A stretch of 64,000 bases of DNA from Methanocorpusculum sp. (GTDB taxonomy: Archaea; Halobacteriota; Methanomicrobia; Methanomicrobiales; Methanocorpusculaceae). This document shows, in pieces, positions 32,536-35,615 of this stretch. Numbering within the stretch: position 1 is the first letter of the stretch; every line of letters begins with the position of its first letter. The position numbers were made by a program, and so were the translations under genes. The notes beneath the pieces are model-generated. The model made no database searches. It was not told the DNA's origin and saw only the letters and a list, made by a program, of their open reading frames with translations. The stretch lies in contig JAFQTT010000003.1 of assembly GCA_017408885.1 (NCBI GenBank), forward strand, positions 124,001 through 188,000, given 5' to 3'.

Positions 32536-32609
32536 ATGACACCCAATACAAGACCATAAACGAACCAATTTCAAAAAACAACCACAATCCAACCGCAAAT
32601 TCAAACACC

Positions 32610-32843
32610 ATTCCATATTACATATTCCATACATCATTTTTGAAAAAAAAAGGTATGAGAGGTATTTCGAGCGCTGTTCTCTTCCGCTTCGCATGAAGAG
32701 TACGCGATGCGCAATTCTCTTGTGTTATCTATTTGTCATTAAAGTAATATAAACAAAAACAACAGCTTAGAAAAAAGAAAATGGGGTTTTTACCCCTCCA
32801 TACCTTTTTTGAAAATTAATGTATGGAATATGTAATATGGAAT
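32610..32843. repeat. Element of 234 bases bounded by a perfect 25-base inverted repeat
   Basis: The arm at 32610-32634 (begins ATTCCATATTAC) is the exact reverse complement of 32819-32843. Similarity continues inwards imperfectly (TTTTTGAAAA...GGTATGAGAGG against AATTTTCAAAA...GGTATGGAGGGG), so the ends are about 45-50 bases long. No target-site duplication is evident. It looks like a MITE-type element or a long hairpin around the small RNA gene. Confidence 0.65.
32643..32724 (-). ncRNA. Probable small RNA, copy A
   Basis: On the minus strand a TATA box TTTATATTA (32745-32753) lies about 25 bases before a predicted start near 32724. The transcript would begin near ACACAAGAGA, form a hairpin (CTCTTC/GAAGAG arms, + strand positions 32679-32684 and 32695-32700), and end in nine U residues (A-run at 32643-32651). 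A homologous copy lies inverted at 34666-34741. Conservation covers promoter, hairpin and T-run, while the loop varies. There is no open reading frame. Confidence 0.5.
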
Positions 32844-32902
32844 AGAGCTTAGATTAAAGACAGCAGAGCGTCCATTCTGTAAAACAGAGCAAAGATATCA
32901 GC

Positions 32903-33652
32903 CTAATTTTCTTCAAAAATCAGATTGTGTAACACATCCTCTGCTTCTTTTGTGATGCAGTAGTACACACCACCCTCCTCTTCACGCGAGACGGCGAGCC
33001 CACAAACAACGAACTGTTCGAGATACCATCTGGCGGTGGTTTCGCTGATGTGAAGAACTCCTGCAAGCTCTTTTCGGGTAATCTCTTTTTGCTCGAAGAG
33101 CATCCGCAATGCCGCACCGGATTTCTTCCGCGAAAGGAAGCGAAGGACAGCCGCATGTTCTGCAGACGCCGGAGCGGCAGAGGTCAGGAAGTACTGTGCA
33201 ACCCCATTTGCCCTAACTACTTTGAGGAATCCTTTCTTTTCGAGATTTTTCAGATGATAAGTTACTGATCCGCGGGAAGCGGAGACCGCTTCGACAATCT
33301 GTTTCTGACTGCTTCCGTTGTGTTCATGGAGGAAGGAAATGATTTTTTCAGGGATGGGTGAAGGCTTTCTCCTTTTAGGAGATGTGAAACCAAAGAAACC
33401 TGCGACAATTGTGATAACCGATATGATGAGAAGAACAAAACCATGAATAATTGTCCCATCAACCAAGTCAGCAATAAACAGAAGAATTGGTGTAAGAATA
33501 GGACGGAGAAATTTAGGGATATACTTTGTTTCATCAGAGAAAATATTATCCTCATCGTCAGGAGAAGTTACCACATCAGCCGCAGAACATCCAGCTATTC
33601 CAAGAAATCCAAAAGTGACGAAGATAAGAAAAATTAGCACCCATGACTTCAT
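32903..33652 (-). CDS. Membrane-tethered winged-helix transcription regulator
   Basis: The 249-residue protein starts with a signal/anchor segment ending in a lipobox-like GIAGCSA. A short acidic outside segment and one membrane helix (about 67-88) follow, then two tandem winged-helix domains: about 98-155 (SQKQIVEAVSASRGSVTYHLKNLEKKG) and about 170-245 (TRKELAGVLHISETTARWYLEQF). This layout suggests a one-component sensor with its outer part at the cell surface and DNA-binding domains inside. Signal unknown. The long inverted repeat at 33715-33782 lies 63-130 bases upstream of its start and is the likely self-operator. Confidence 0.82.
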   Translation of the reverse strand: MKSWVLIFLIFVTFGFLGIAGCSAADVVTSPDDEDNIFSDETKYIPKFLRPILTPILLFIADLVDGTIIHGFVLLIISVITIVAGFFGFTSPKRRKPSPIPEKIISFLHEHNGSSQKQIVEAVSASRGSVTYHLKNLEKKGFLKVVRANGVAQYFLTSAAPASAEHAAVLRFLSRKKSGAALRMLFEQKEITRKELAGVLHISETTARWYLEQFVVCGLAVSREEEGGVYYCITKEAEDVLHNLIFEEN

Positions 33653-33714
33653 AGAACAACTCCTCCAAAGCAGATGAGAAATATGCTAAATATTCTACTT
33701 TGTATCTCAGCATT

Positions 33715-33782
33715 TATGAATCTATTGAACATAGACTGACAAAACACAGTATATCTGTTAATCTATGCTCAATAGATTCATA
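33715..33782. promoter_or_regulatory. Long inverted-repeat operator upstream of the membrane-tethered regulator
   Basis: TATGAATCTATTGA-A-CATAGA (33715-33735) and its complement at 33762-33782 match at 20 of 21 positions, with a 26-base AT-rich spacer. Long arms and regulator adjacency suggest two binding sites of a dimer, probably for the winged-helix protein's own gene. Confidence 0.6.
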
Positions 33783-33806
33783 ATTTCTCAAAATTCATAG
33801 CGTTAT

Positions 33807-33929
33807 GTGCTGAGGCGTACAGCACAGAGAAGAATCTTCTCAATTTCAGCATCATGGATTATGCCAATCCGTTAATGCGATTTCCGTGTTGTAACAGAGA
33901 GATGACGGCGAATATCATTCGTGCGTCAT
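33807..33929. other. Cluster of three hairpins between the divergent regulator and membrane-protein genes
   Basis: GTGCTG-AGGCGTA-CAGCAC (33807-33825) is followed by GAGAAG-AAT-CTTCTC (33828-33842). A third hairpin has ATGACG and CGAAT arms (33902-33913) pairing with 33917-33929 around the loop ATC. This could be a structured leader RNA of the downstream gene. The strand is unproven, though the third hairpin sits 11 bases ahead of a small reading frame on the plus strand. Confidence 0.4.
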
Positions 33930-33939
33930 GGAGGTTAAA

Positions 33940-34005
33940 ATGAAGATATGTAAGACACTCCCCCCTATTTTTTGTGTAGGTAGACTATCTGAAATGAAAG
34001 AGTGA
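33940..34005 (+). CDS. Possible 21-residue leader peptide
   Basis: The frame MKICKTLPPIFCVGRLSEMK plus one Glu has a good GGAGGT ribosome site six bases upstream and ends six bases before the ATG of the membrane-protein gene. Its stop region supplies GAGTGAG, the ribosome site of the next gene. It may couple or regulate translation of that gene. Too short to judge from composition. Confidence 0.3.
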   Translation: MKICKTLPPIFCVGRLSEMKE

Positions 34006-34011
34006 GAAACT

Positions 34012-34452
34012 ATGAAAACCAAAGAACATAACAGAAAAATACCTGTCTGGACAACGATATGGATTCCTGTCTTTATTACTCTGGGGATTCTTATTCTCTT
34101 ATCATTCTACGGGAAGATAGTAACAAGCGGAGAAAATGCTGATATTGTCATCTACCTTATCGGAATTCTCTTAGGTATCCTTACCTTTACCGCAGTATTC
34201 CGCGGAGTTCGAGCAGGCAGAACACTGGAATGTTCCAAACTTTCGTACACAAAATCAGAACAGTATTTCCAATGGATATTCATTGGAATCATTGTTCTTT
34301 CCGGAATACTAATTGGTTTGCTAGTTCTGCAGGGATGGGGCACCAATTTCTCACTGGAATCCATCGGCGGTGTCGGAGTATTCATCGGTGGTTTGTTTCT
34401 TATCAGTACCGCAGAATACAAAGAAGCAGTGCGGATTTCCAGAAGAGAATAA
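34012..34452 (+). CDS. Small membrane protein of unknown function
   Basis: The 146-residue protein has four hydrophobic segments at about 12-31, 43-64, 88-107 and 118-132, with short basic ends (MKTKEHNRK, VRISRRE). No motif or family recognised. It is divergent from the membrane-tethered regulator and shares its operator-bearing region, so it may be that regulator's target. Confidence 0.6.
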   Translation: MKTKEHNRKIPVWTTIWIPVFITLGILILLSFYGKIVTSGENADIVIYLIGILLGILTFTAVFRGVRAGRTLECSKLSYTKSEQYFQWIFIGIIVLSGILIGLLVLQGWGTNFSLESIGGVGVFIGGLFLISTAEYKEAVRISRRE

Positions 34453-34665
34453 TTCTGGAAAACAAACAGTACAAATTGTGAGAGTGTATGTGAGTTTATG
34501 CTCAATAATATTATATACTCTCACACTAATGAAAATATATGGCAGTCACAATGAGCATGAGGGTGAAAGGACTGCTCGAAGGTCTCATCATCGGAGCCTC
34601 CATTTTTCATTTTTCTTCCCTAAGCTGTTGAGTTTATTTATATTATTTTAAAAACAAACAGATAA

Positions 34666-34741
34666 CACAAGAGAGTTACGCACCGCGTTCTCTTCTTTGG
34701 AAAAAGAAGAGAGCAGCGCTTGATACATCGCATACTTTTTT
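34666..34741 (+). ncRNA. Probable small RNA, copy B
   Basis: The element is homologous to copy A, on the opposite strand 2 kb away. The TATA box TTTATATTA (34637-34645) is about 25 bases before the predicted start, and the transcript begins near ACACAAGAGAG. A perfect 9-base stem (34690-34698 with 34703-34711) is capped by a GGAA tetraloop of GNRA type. Six U residues end it (34736-34741). Similarity to copy A spans about 130 bases, including AAGCTGTTG upstream of the TATA box. Confidence 0.5.
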
Positions 34742-34753
34742 CTGGATAAAAGG

Positions 34754-34774
34754 TGTGCACTGTGCACTGTGCAC
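34754..34774. repeat. Three tandem copies of GTGCACT
   Basis: Seven-base units containing the palindrome GTGCAC are repeated three times directly after small RNA copy B. A slippage-prone microsatellite or protein-binding cluster. Confidence 0.7.
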
Positions 34775-34938: not shown

Positions 34939-35289
34939 TTACCCGCAGACCTTTTCCATCAAAGCATCAATCTGAGGTTTAAGCTCCGGAATATCATTGG
35001 ATATAAGAATCCACACACGCATAGGGTCGATTGAAAAATAGCCGTGAATATATCTATTTCTGGTGTCCTGCATTTTTCTCCATGGAATTTCTGAATGTTC
35101 TGTGCAGAATGCTTCCGGAAGATAGCTTACCGCTTCACCGATTATCATAATTGAGTTTCGCATGCTTCCCTGAATGAGACGGCTCTGCATAAACTCTTCT
35201 TTGGTTATCCCTGATACAGTCTCAATGATGAAACTGCATTCATCCTGAATATGGTGCAGATAAACACACGGGTCTTTTGGTGCTTTCAT
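34939..35289 (-). CDS. HEPT-domain toxin (DUF86), copy 1
   Basis: The 116-residue helical protein, starting at MKAPKDPC (ATG at 35289, overlapping the antitoxin stop by four bases), carries the HEPT ribonuclease motif in TRNRYIHGYF (R-x4-H-x-Y). In MNT/HEPT systems the HEPT protein is the toxin, and the nucleotidyltransferase neutralises it, in studied cases by adenylylating the Tyr of this motif. A paralogous pair lies at 47,648-48,297. Confidence 0.85.
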   Translation of the reverse strand: MKAPKDPCVYLHHIQDECSFIIETVSGITKEEFMQSRLIQGSMRNSIMIIGEAVSYLPEAFCTEHSEIPWRKMQDTRNRYIHGYFSIDPMRVWILISNDIPELKPQIDALMEKVCG

Positions 35290-35615
35290 GCCAACGCCTC
35301 CTGCGGATAACAAATTGCATCCTTTCTGATATACGGCTCAATATACGGGTCGATGTAATCAATCGACACAAGCTCAACATGCCTCCCGAAAAGAGTTTCC
35401 AGATAGTCAGCAAATGCAAGAAACATATCTGTGGTGATGGATTCATCATCAGCAAATCGATAAAGAACATCCACATCACTTTCCGGAGTATCTTCCCCGC
35501 GTGATACAGAACCGAATATGCCTATGGTTTCAATTCCGAAACGCATGCGTATCTCTGAGAGATTCTCCTCCAAACAACGCAGTGTTTCTTCCCTTATACT
35601 GAGATATTCCGTCAT
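35286..35615 (-). CDS. MNT-domain nucleotidyltransferase antitoxin, copy 1
   Basis: The 109-residue minimal nucleotidyltransferase has the motif IFGSVSRGEDTPESDVDVLY (GSxxRG with two catalytic Asp). It likely adenylylates its HEPT partner. N-terminal MTEYLSIREETLRCLEE aligns with the second copy's MSEYVSIKNEVVKKLEE, which supports the start. A TATA-like TTTTATCAC (minus strand, 35641-35649) precedes it. Confidence 0.87.
   Translation of the reverse strand: MTEYLSIREETLRCLEENLSEIRMRFGIETIGIFGSVSRGEDTPESDVDVLYRFADDESITTDMFLAFADYLETLFGRHVELVSIDYIDPYIEPYIRKDAICYPQEALA

Follow-up and report, generated by a model that had tools for sequence, protein, structure and literature searches.

A predicted small RNA gene family of Methanocorpusculum is framed by inverted heptad arms and often adjoins a gene for a likely ribbon-helix-helix protein

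Introduction

Why do two look-alike DNA segments, facing in opposite directions, stand on either side of a regulator gene and a membrane-protein gene in a Methanocorpusculum genome? A sequence-only reading of the window, the whole 64,000-nucleotide stretch analysed here, had taken the segments to be the two copies of a previously undescribed small RNA family. Little is known of the regulatory small RNAs of methanogens. Here, we describe the two segments, A and B, as members of a family that extends across the genus, has a common architecture, is bracketed by inverted arms that have a 7-bp period and match each other, and in many cases is syntenic with a gene for a protein likely to have a ribbon-helix-helix (RHH) fold.

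Results

Parts of copies A and B

The two inverted copies are real. In a DNA search of the whole genome, A, on the minus strand, matches B, on the plus strand, with 79% identity over 138 nt (E = 6e-27), and the reverse search gives 81%. As the reading had stated, a regulator gene and a membrane-protein gene lie between them: the first encodes a membrane-anchored winged-helix regulator (32903–33652, minus strand; Pfam HTH_24, E = 2.4e-14) and the second a small membrane protein (34012–34452, plus strand; DUF3611 below the cut-off).

In A, reading along the minus strand, an upstream element AAGCTGTTG (32760–32768), found in B too, is followed by a TATA box TTTATATTA (32745–32753), set at the distance from the 5′ box that is typical of the family; by the 5′ box GATAACACAAGAG itself (32717–32729), the presumed RNA start, which is conserved genus-wide and scores 46.8 bits with the covariance model R1 described below; by a stem-loop (32671–32712) with an apical CUCUUC/GAAGAG stem inside 32679–32700; and by an oligo-U end of nine T (32643–32651). 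In B, the same parts run along the plus strand: AAGCTGTTG at 34622–34630, the TATA box TTTATATTA at 34637–34645, the 5′ box GATAACACAAGAG at 34661–34673 (R1, 53.5 bits), the hairpin at 34684–34718, and the T-run that gives the oligo-U end within 34733–34742. The archaeal-type promoter, hairpin, and oligo-U end are in register as in a gene, which upholds the earlier description of both copies. The whole-genome search revealed a third copy, C, on a different contig of the same genome, with TATA box, 5′ box GATAACACAAGAG, hairpin, and T-run in the same register. A scan for sigma-70-type promoters, a model not applicable to archaea, stayed at chance level.

Two details of the sequence-only reading stand in part. 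The stem, described as kept while the loop changes, is identical in A, B, and C, with the loop alone varying; being identical, it shows no covariation by itself, and in comparison with shuffled sequences the fold is significant for B (z −3.6, 0 of 200 shuffles as good) but not for A (z −1.1). The upstream element AAGCTGTTG, described as conserved, is common to A, B, and the orthologues of B in two relatives, but C has AAGCTCTAA and the wider family is without the element.

A family across the genus

A plain DNA search, with B as the query, picked up relatives in 10 of the 25 genus genomes, mostly over the promoter and 5′ box only. R1 is a sequence-only model of this promoter and 5′-box stretch, with A and B in its training set and with the first relatives taken from the plain DNA search. 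A search of related genomes by covariance model had been suggested for the locus; run with R1 across the genus, it returned ~50 copies at E < 1e-4 and matches in 22 of 25 genomes at E ≤ 1, and a sister type, R2, with the 5′ box ACAACARG, accounts for ~20 more copies, five of them in the window's genome; these counts include training sequences. Instead of a private two-copy family, A and B are two of ~70 genus-wide copies, and the window's genome holds at least eight. The genomes, mostly MAGs with many copies at contig ends, were assigned to Methanocorpusculum from named records (M. petauri, M. parvum, and MAGs), and the window's genome is ~90% complete. The promoter-box model found nothing convincing outside the genus in 150 genomes of the order.

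Both A and B have the features by which R1 members are recognised, a TATA box at fixed spacing to a ATAACACAAGAG box, a hairpin, and a T-run. Across the family, TATA and 5′ box stand a constant distance apart, the hairpin that comes next differs among copies in both size and sequence, and T-runs close the unit; relatives retain both TATA box and U-tail, so that copies lacking these, which were to count against an RNA gene, did not come to light. Folding of the family RNAs is weak (mean z −1.3 vs −0.9 in the control). Many solo copies occupy the same position between the same genes in different species. Rfam release 15 has no match over A and B at the gathering threshold, in agreement with the family being undescribed; at 12 related loci the only matches are RNase P, tRNA, and DUF3800-X, all outside the element, and a relaxed E-value yields only chance-level miRNA and snoRNA scores. 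Judging by these shared parts, A and B are predicted to be transcribed members of a family of small RNA genes, ~65–85 nt long, that is nearly confined to Methanocorpusculum.

Inverted heptad arms

Two features beyond the earlier reading are a 51-nt inverted repeat enclosing A and a triple heptad beside B. The arms of A, assigned to neither strand, are 84% complementary: the downstream, or terminator-side, arm is at 32598–32648, with the heptad core ATTCCAT/ATTACAT/ATTCCAT read from the sequence at 32610–32634, and the promoter-side arm is at 32805–32855, with its core at 32819–32843. B has a right arm of three GTGCACT heptads (34755–34774, likewise unstranded), and its left arm is absent here. 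Both arms are present at A, at C, and at the two orthologues of B.

Nearly every copy of the family is bracketed by inverted arms of tandem 7-bp repeats. When the left flank of an element is compared with its own reverse-complemented right flank, the match exceeds 99% of shuffles in 54 of 58 elements, and the median score is 21.75 within an element versus 8.5 between arms of different elements. The period is exactly 7, with an identity of 0.66 at lag 7 and 0.61 at lag 14, compared with 0.15–0.30 at other lags. The heptads vary by element (GTGCACT, GACGTCA, GAGCTCA, CTTCATA, CATCAAT, GTGACCA, TTCTCAC, ATTCCAT, and others), commonly containing a (T/C/A)CA core. Across the 25 genus genomes, tandem GTGCACW is restricted to the arms of B, C, and their orthologues, the array pattern read backwards has 0 occurrences in the window's genome and relatives, and the ATTCCAT-type array occurs in the window's genome only in the two arms of A. 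Arrays restricted in this way are not general genomic repeats.

The arms are the least conserved part between copies, and the interior is conserved. Within elements, the mismatch is 13% from arm to arm versus 33% between adjacent heptads. Transversions make up 127 of 245 arm mismatches, and the transitions comprise 72 that are wobble-compatible and 46 others. In the 90%-identical orthologue pair L084/L086, heptads were gained in both arms, and these are not identical ones. At L103 and L081 (G018), the arms span 70–120 bp, well past the heptads, and still match each other.

The neighbouring protein and its operon

About 19 R1 elements are divergent to a gene for a protein of 145–190 aa that starts like MRQNAYLNITPEEFETLDSIAKNLGFVSRTD. 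With this RHH-like protein as the query, ~50 loci came up across the genus, including five in the window's genome. Most of the loci that R1 had not flagged have the same architecture, with an ACAACARG-box RNA and other heptads. Three heptad-armed RNAs unseen until then lie at such protein-found loci in the window's genome. In effect, a prediction was borne out: the protein led to heptad-armed RNAs that RNA similarity had missed. The gene adjoins the left side of 31 of 58 analysed elements, where it starts just outside the left arm and is divergent from the RNA, and it is usually followed in an operon by genes for an HNH endonuclease, an unknown ~165-aa protein, and a 65-aa HTH protein. An invertible promoter was considered and rejected; in all RHH-linked elements, the RNA promoter faces away from the RHH-like gene.

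Pfam RHH_1 matches the N-terminal 45 residues below the cut-off in three paralogues (E = 0.0017, 0.002, and 0.023) and has no match in the remaining paralogues tested. An AlphaFold model (pLDDT 89.6) has helices at residues 11–23 and 29–42, followed by a helical C-terminal part, and the two helices appear to fit an RHH monomer, as expected. Foldseek found no significant match in the PDB, where globins and other helical proteins were the only matches, at E > 1; its local match of highest probability, the MazE antitoxin over 41 columns, is not significant. The neighbour protein is likely, not proven, to have an RHH fold.

Similarity among the proteins tracks similarity among the heptads (Mantel r 0.29, 1 of 2000 permutations), and the arms of solo elements resemble the cassette arms of their own genome (9.3 vs 6.2 permuted, 0 of 5000); common descent or within-genome duplication can partly account for both correlations. 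The RHH-like protein has tandem 7-bp repeats beside its own gene, and the repeats of one paralogue of the window's genome, on contig C7, are TATCACT, which fits the consensus WATCACW. Locus L138 has a counterpart in the window's genome, L198, with the same heptads and a near-identical start of the RHH-like protein. In the window's genome, no RHH-linked element carries the heptads of A or of B and C, so that a regulator of A, B, and C can be named only as a candidate.

In a search for antisense pairing between each RNA and the RHH operon, the best match was in cis for 6 of 31, with ~3 expected, and there is no enrichment; relative ranks were used, the duplex energies being inflated in absolute terms. 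Searches for the RHH-like protein in plasmids, phages, and IMG/VR gave no matches, and no ParA was noticed among the cassette neighbours inspected.

Several observations concern the surroundings. A second conserved hairpin-like stretch, AGTGTCTGTTC...CAGACACG, perhaps a terminator, follows the right arm in RHH-linked cassettes (L065, L067, L069, and 16 more loci, ~+190 to +240 from TATA). Genes for large secreted or surface proteins often lie beyond the RNA element or a few hundred bp off (seen at L120, L122, L198, L069, L102, L104, and L113). At L160 (contig C9 of the window's genome, 109500–124500), C and an RNA-less RHH–HNH operon bracket a type I restriction-modification locus, and that RHH-like gene may have C as its displaced partner.

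History of the A–B locus

In two relatives, the intergenic region has B alone, with both arms present. Homology to these B-only loci ends at ~32560 and resumes at ~34596, marking off a block (32562–34595, unstranded) of ~2 kb that contains A with its arms, the winged-helix membrane regulator, the small membrane protein, and a truncated reading frame. The comparison indicates that this block, carrying A, was set beside an older B and deleted the left arm of B. This placement of the block explains why the regulator and the membrane protein lie between A and B. Since relatives have B-only loci and the arms of A are of another dialect, A is not a local duplicate of B. In another relative, an A-type arm stands beside the same upstream gene with no RNA. 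The locus analysis found no tie between the RNA and the regulator or the membrane protein.

The block and its borders have further features. Just upstream of the winged-helix regulator gene is a 33-nt inverted repeat of 85% (33709–33788), and between the membrane-protein gene and B is a 71% direct copy of one of its arms (34489–34523); these repeats are possible operators of the winged-helix regulator. The frame MAVTMSMRVKGLLEGLIIGAS (~34540–34600) is cut at the junction with B, and in a relative, at L221, a longer frame with the same start lies near the same upstream gene, so that the gene looks truncated in the window. Downstream of B, a DUF86 (HEPN)-like gene (34939–35313) and a nucleotidyltransferase-like gene (35286–35615) resemble a toxin–antitoxin pair by eye.

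A provirus relative

Among 232 genomes of the order that were searched for the RHH family, one match lies outside the genus; it has an HNH gene as its neighbour and belongs to a provirus in a different Methanomicrobiales family. The provirus (L166/L159, G066) has an archaeal integrase (PF16795, 5.5e-18) and a HerA-like packaging ATPase (phrog_2666, 1.3e-18). About 600 bp from its RHH-like gene, two perfect 42-bp inverted arms with TGTACAA heptads lie on either side of a unit with TATA box, CCTACAACACGG 5′ box, hairpin, and T-run; no target-site duplication is present at this copy. Because the sole relative outside the genus sits in a provirus, an archaeal virus or integrative element is the probable ancestor of the set of RNA, heptads, and RHH-like protein.

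Discussion

Arms that flank a divergent promoter region are most simply read as operator arrays, and we consider it reasonably probable that the small RNA gene is controlled by dedicated heptad operators read by the RHH-like protein. A complete element comprises a left heptad arm, a spacer, the TATA promoter, the predicted RNA, one or more U-runs, and the inverted heptads of the right arm. The RNA, presumed to start in the (A)CACAAGAG box, would have a conserved unpaired 5′ end followed by a hairpin. RHH dimers would sit side by side on both arms, one per heptad, and bound protein would repress its own operon, providing autoregulation, and would switch the small RNA on or off. A heptad dialect specific to the locus would make a private protein–operator code, insulated from paralogues. 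The RNA would be the effector, likely to pair or bind through its 5′ end. The solo copies A, B, and C might be serviced by a distant RHH-like protein, with the gene at G000:C9:121937, near C, as a candidate, or be orphaned. Independent protein sites alone do not require that arm match arm better than heptad matches neighbouring heptad; template switching between the arms, or looping that requires mirror-image arrays, may add to the arm matching.

Several known systems share parts of this arrangement. Rolling-circle plasmids of the pMV158 type have a CopG-type RHH repressor and a small counter-transcribed RNA in one regulatory module. The pairing of a putative RHH-like repressor with a small RNA is similar here, but the cassettes are chromosomal, have no Rep gene, and make a predicted RNA that, in the pairing search, is not antisense to the adjacent operon. 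The CI RNA of phage P4 and the c4 RNA of P1/P7 are hairpin immunity RNAs of ~70–90 nt in mobile-element regulatory regions. They resemble the present RNAs in being hairpins of similar length, but here no pairing target was found and there is no sequence relation, Rfam giving no match. The DUF3800-X RNA (RF02984) is likewise an archaeal small RNA, of ~73 nt, with a TATA box, but differs in sequence and structure, has no heptad arms that we could see, and adjoins a DUF3800 gene. One such RNA is present at L122 (579–652 of this locus, on contig C5 of the window's genome; 50.7 bits), preceded by a TATA box at ~25 nt; it lies at the distal end of an RHH operon and is convergent with a DUF3800-like gene. 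The closest parallel for the arms is the RHH protein omega of pSM19035, which binds 7–10 tandem 7-bp WATCACW repeats overlapping promoters, with one dimer per repeat, and which also acts as a ParB, binding the heptad parS (PMC9499535). Shared with omega are the tandem 7-bp repeats in promoter regions beside an RHH-like gene, the autoregulation proposed here, and, in one paralogue of the window's genome, heptads of WATCACW type. In contrast to omega, the Methanocorpusculum protein is about twice as long and without detectable sequence homology, the arrays are two and inverted around a small RNA gene, the heptads are locus-specific, and no ParA was seen.

The arms could instead be the terminal inverted repeats of MITE-like non-autonomous transposons, with the RNA as a passenger or a part of the mobility system. 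Multicopy 250-bp units with inverted ends, the existence of solo copies, the perfect 42-bp arms in a provirus of another family, and the lone A-type arm without RNA at the orthologous locus of a relative all suit such an origin. We nevertheless judge it improbable: the arms, which a transposase would recognise, are the part least conserved between copies while the interior is conserved, many solo copies are fixed between the same genes across species, the arms do not enclose the RHH operon, the neighbours include no transposase, and no target-site duplication was seen at the provirus copy. The in-register match of the arms, better than that of neighbouring heptads, has a different possible source in pairing of the arms with each other, as a DNA cruciform or a stem in read-through RNA, with the heptads arising by slippage synchronised through template switching. 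The slight excess of wobble-compatible transitions (72 vs 46) and the long arms of L103 and L081 agree with it, but the promoter lies between the arms, which leaves the small RNA without the left arm, transversions form 127 of the 245 mismatches, the heptads gained at L084/L086 are non-identical, and the RHH neighbour and strict 7-bp period go unexplained; we give arm pairing little credence as the whole explanation.

A further reading, somewhat less remote and still unlikely in our estimate, is that the heptad arrays mark the centromere-like or replication-control site of a plasmid or virus that has since decayed, with the RNA serving as a counter-transcribed RNA for copy control or immunity. 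The ParB activity of omega on heptad parS (PMC9499535) and the integrase and packaging ATPase of the provirus that holds the outside relative speak for a replicon; against it, neither ParA nor Rep was seen beside the cassettes, the RNA has no cis antisense match to the RHH operon, and the copies are chromosomal and positionally stable. Control of the small RNA gene through heptad operators is the reading that we prefer. Only tentatively, and with doubt outweighing confidence, do we extend it to a new class of regulatory cassette, in which an RNA gene would lie in self-matching inverted heptad arrays whose code turns over together with that of a dedicated RHH-like protein, providing, within a single small archaeal genome, many insulated RNA switches of viral or integrative-element origin that are kept for immunity or for control of surface genes.

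A literature search turned up no transcription-control system dedicated to an archaeal RNA family with many copies. Within this single genus, dozens of copies would carry a legible protein–DNA code, in which the heptad is written twice per locus and changes between loci, and this variation would open the recognition and evolution of RHH operators to direct testing. For gut-associated methanogens, the findings point to a module, virus-derived or selfish, whose output is the small RNA.
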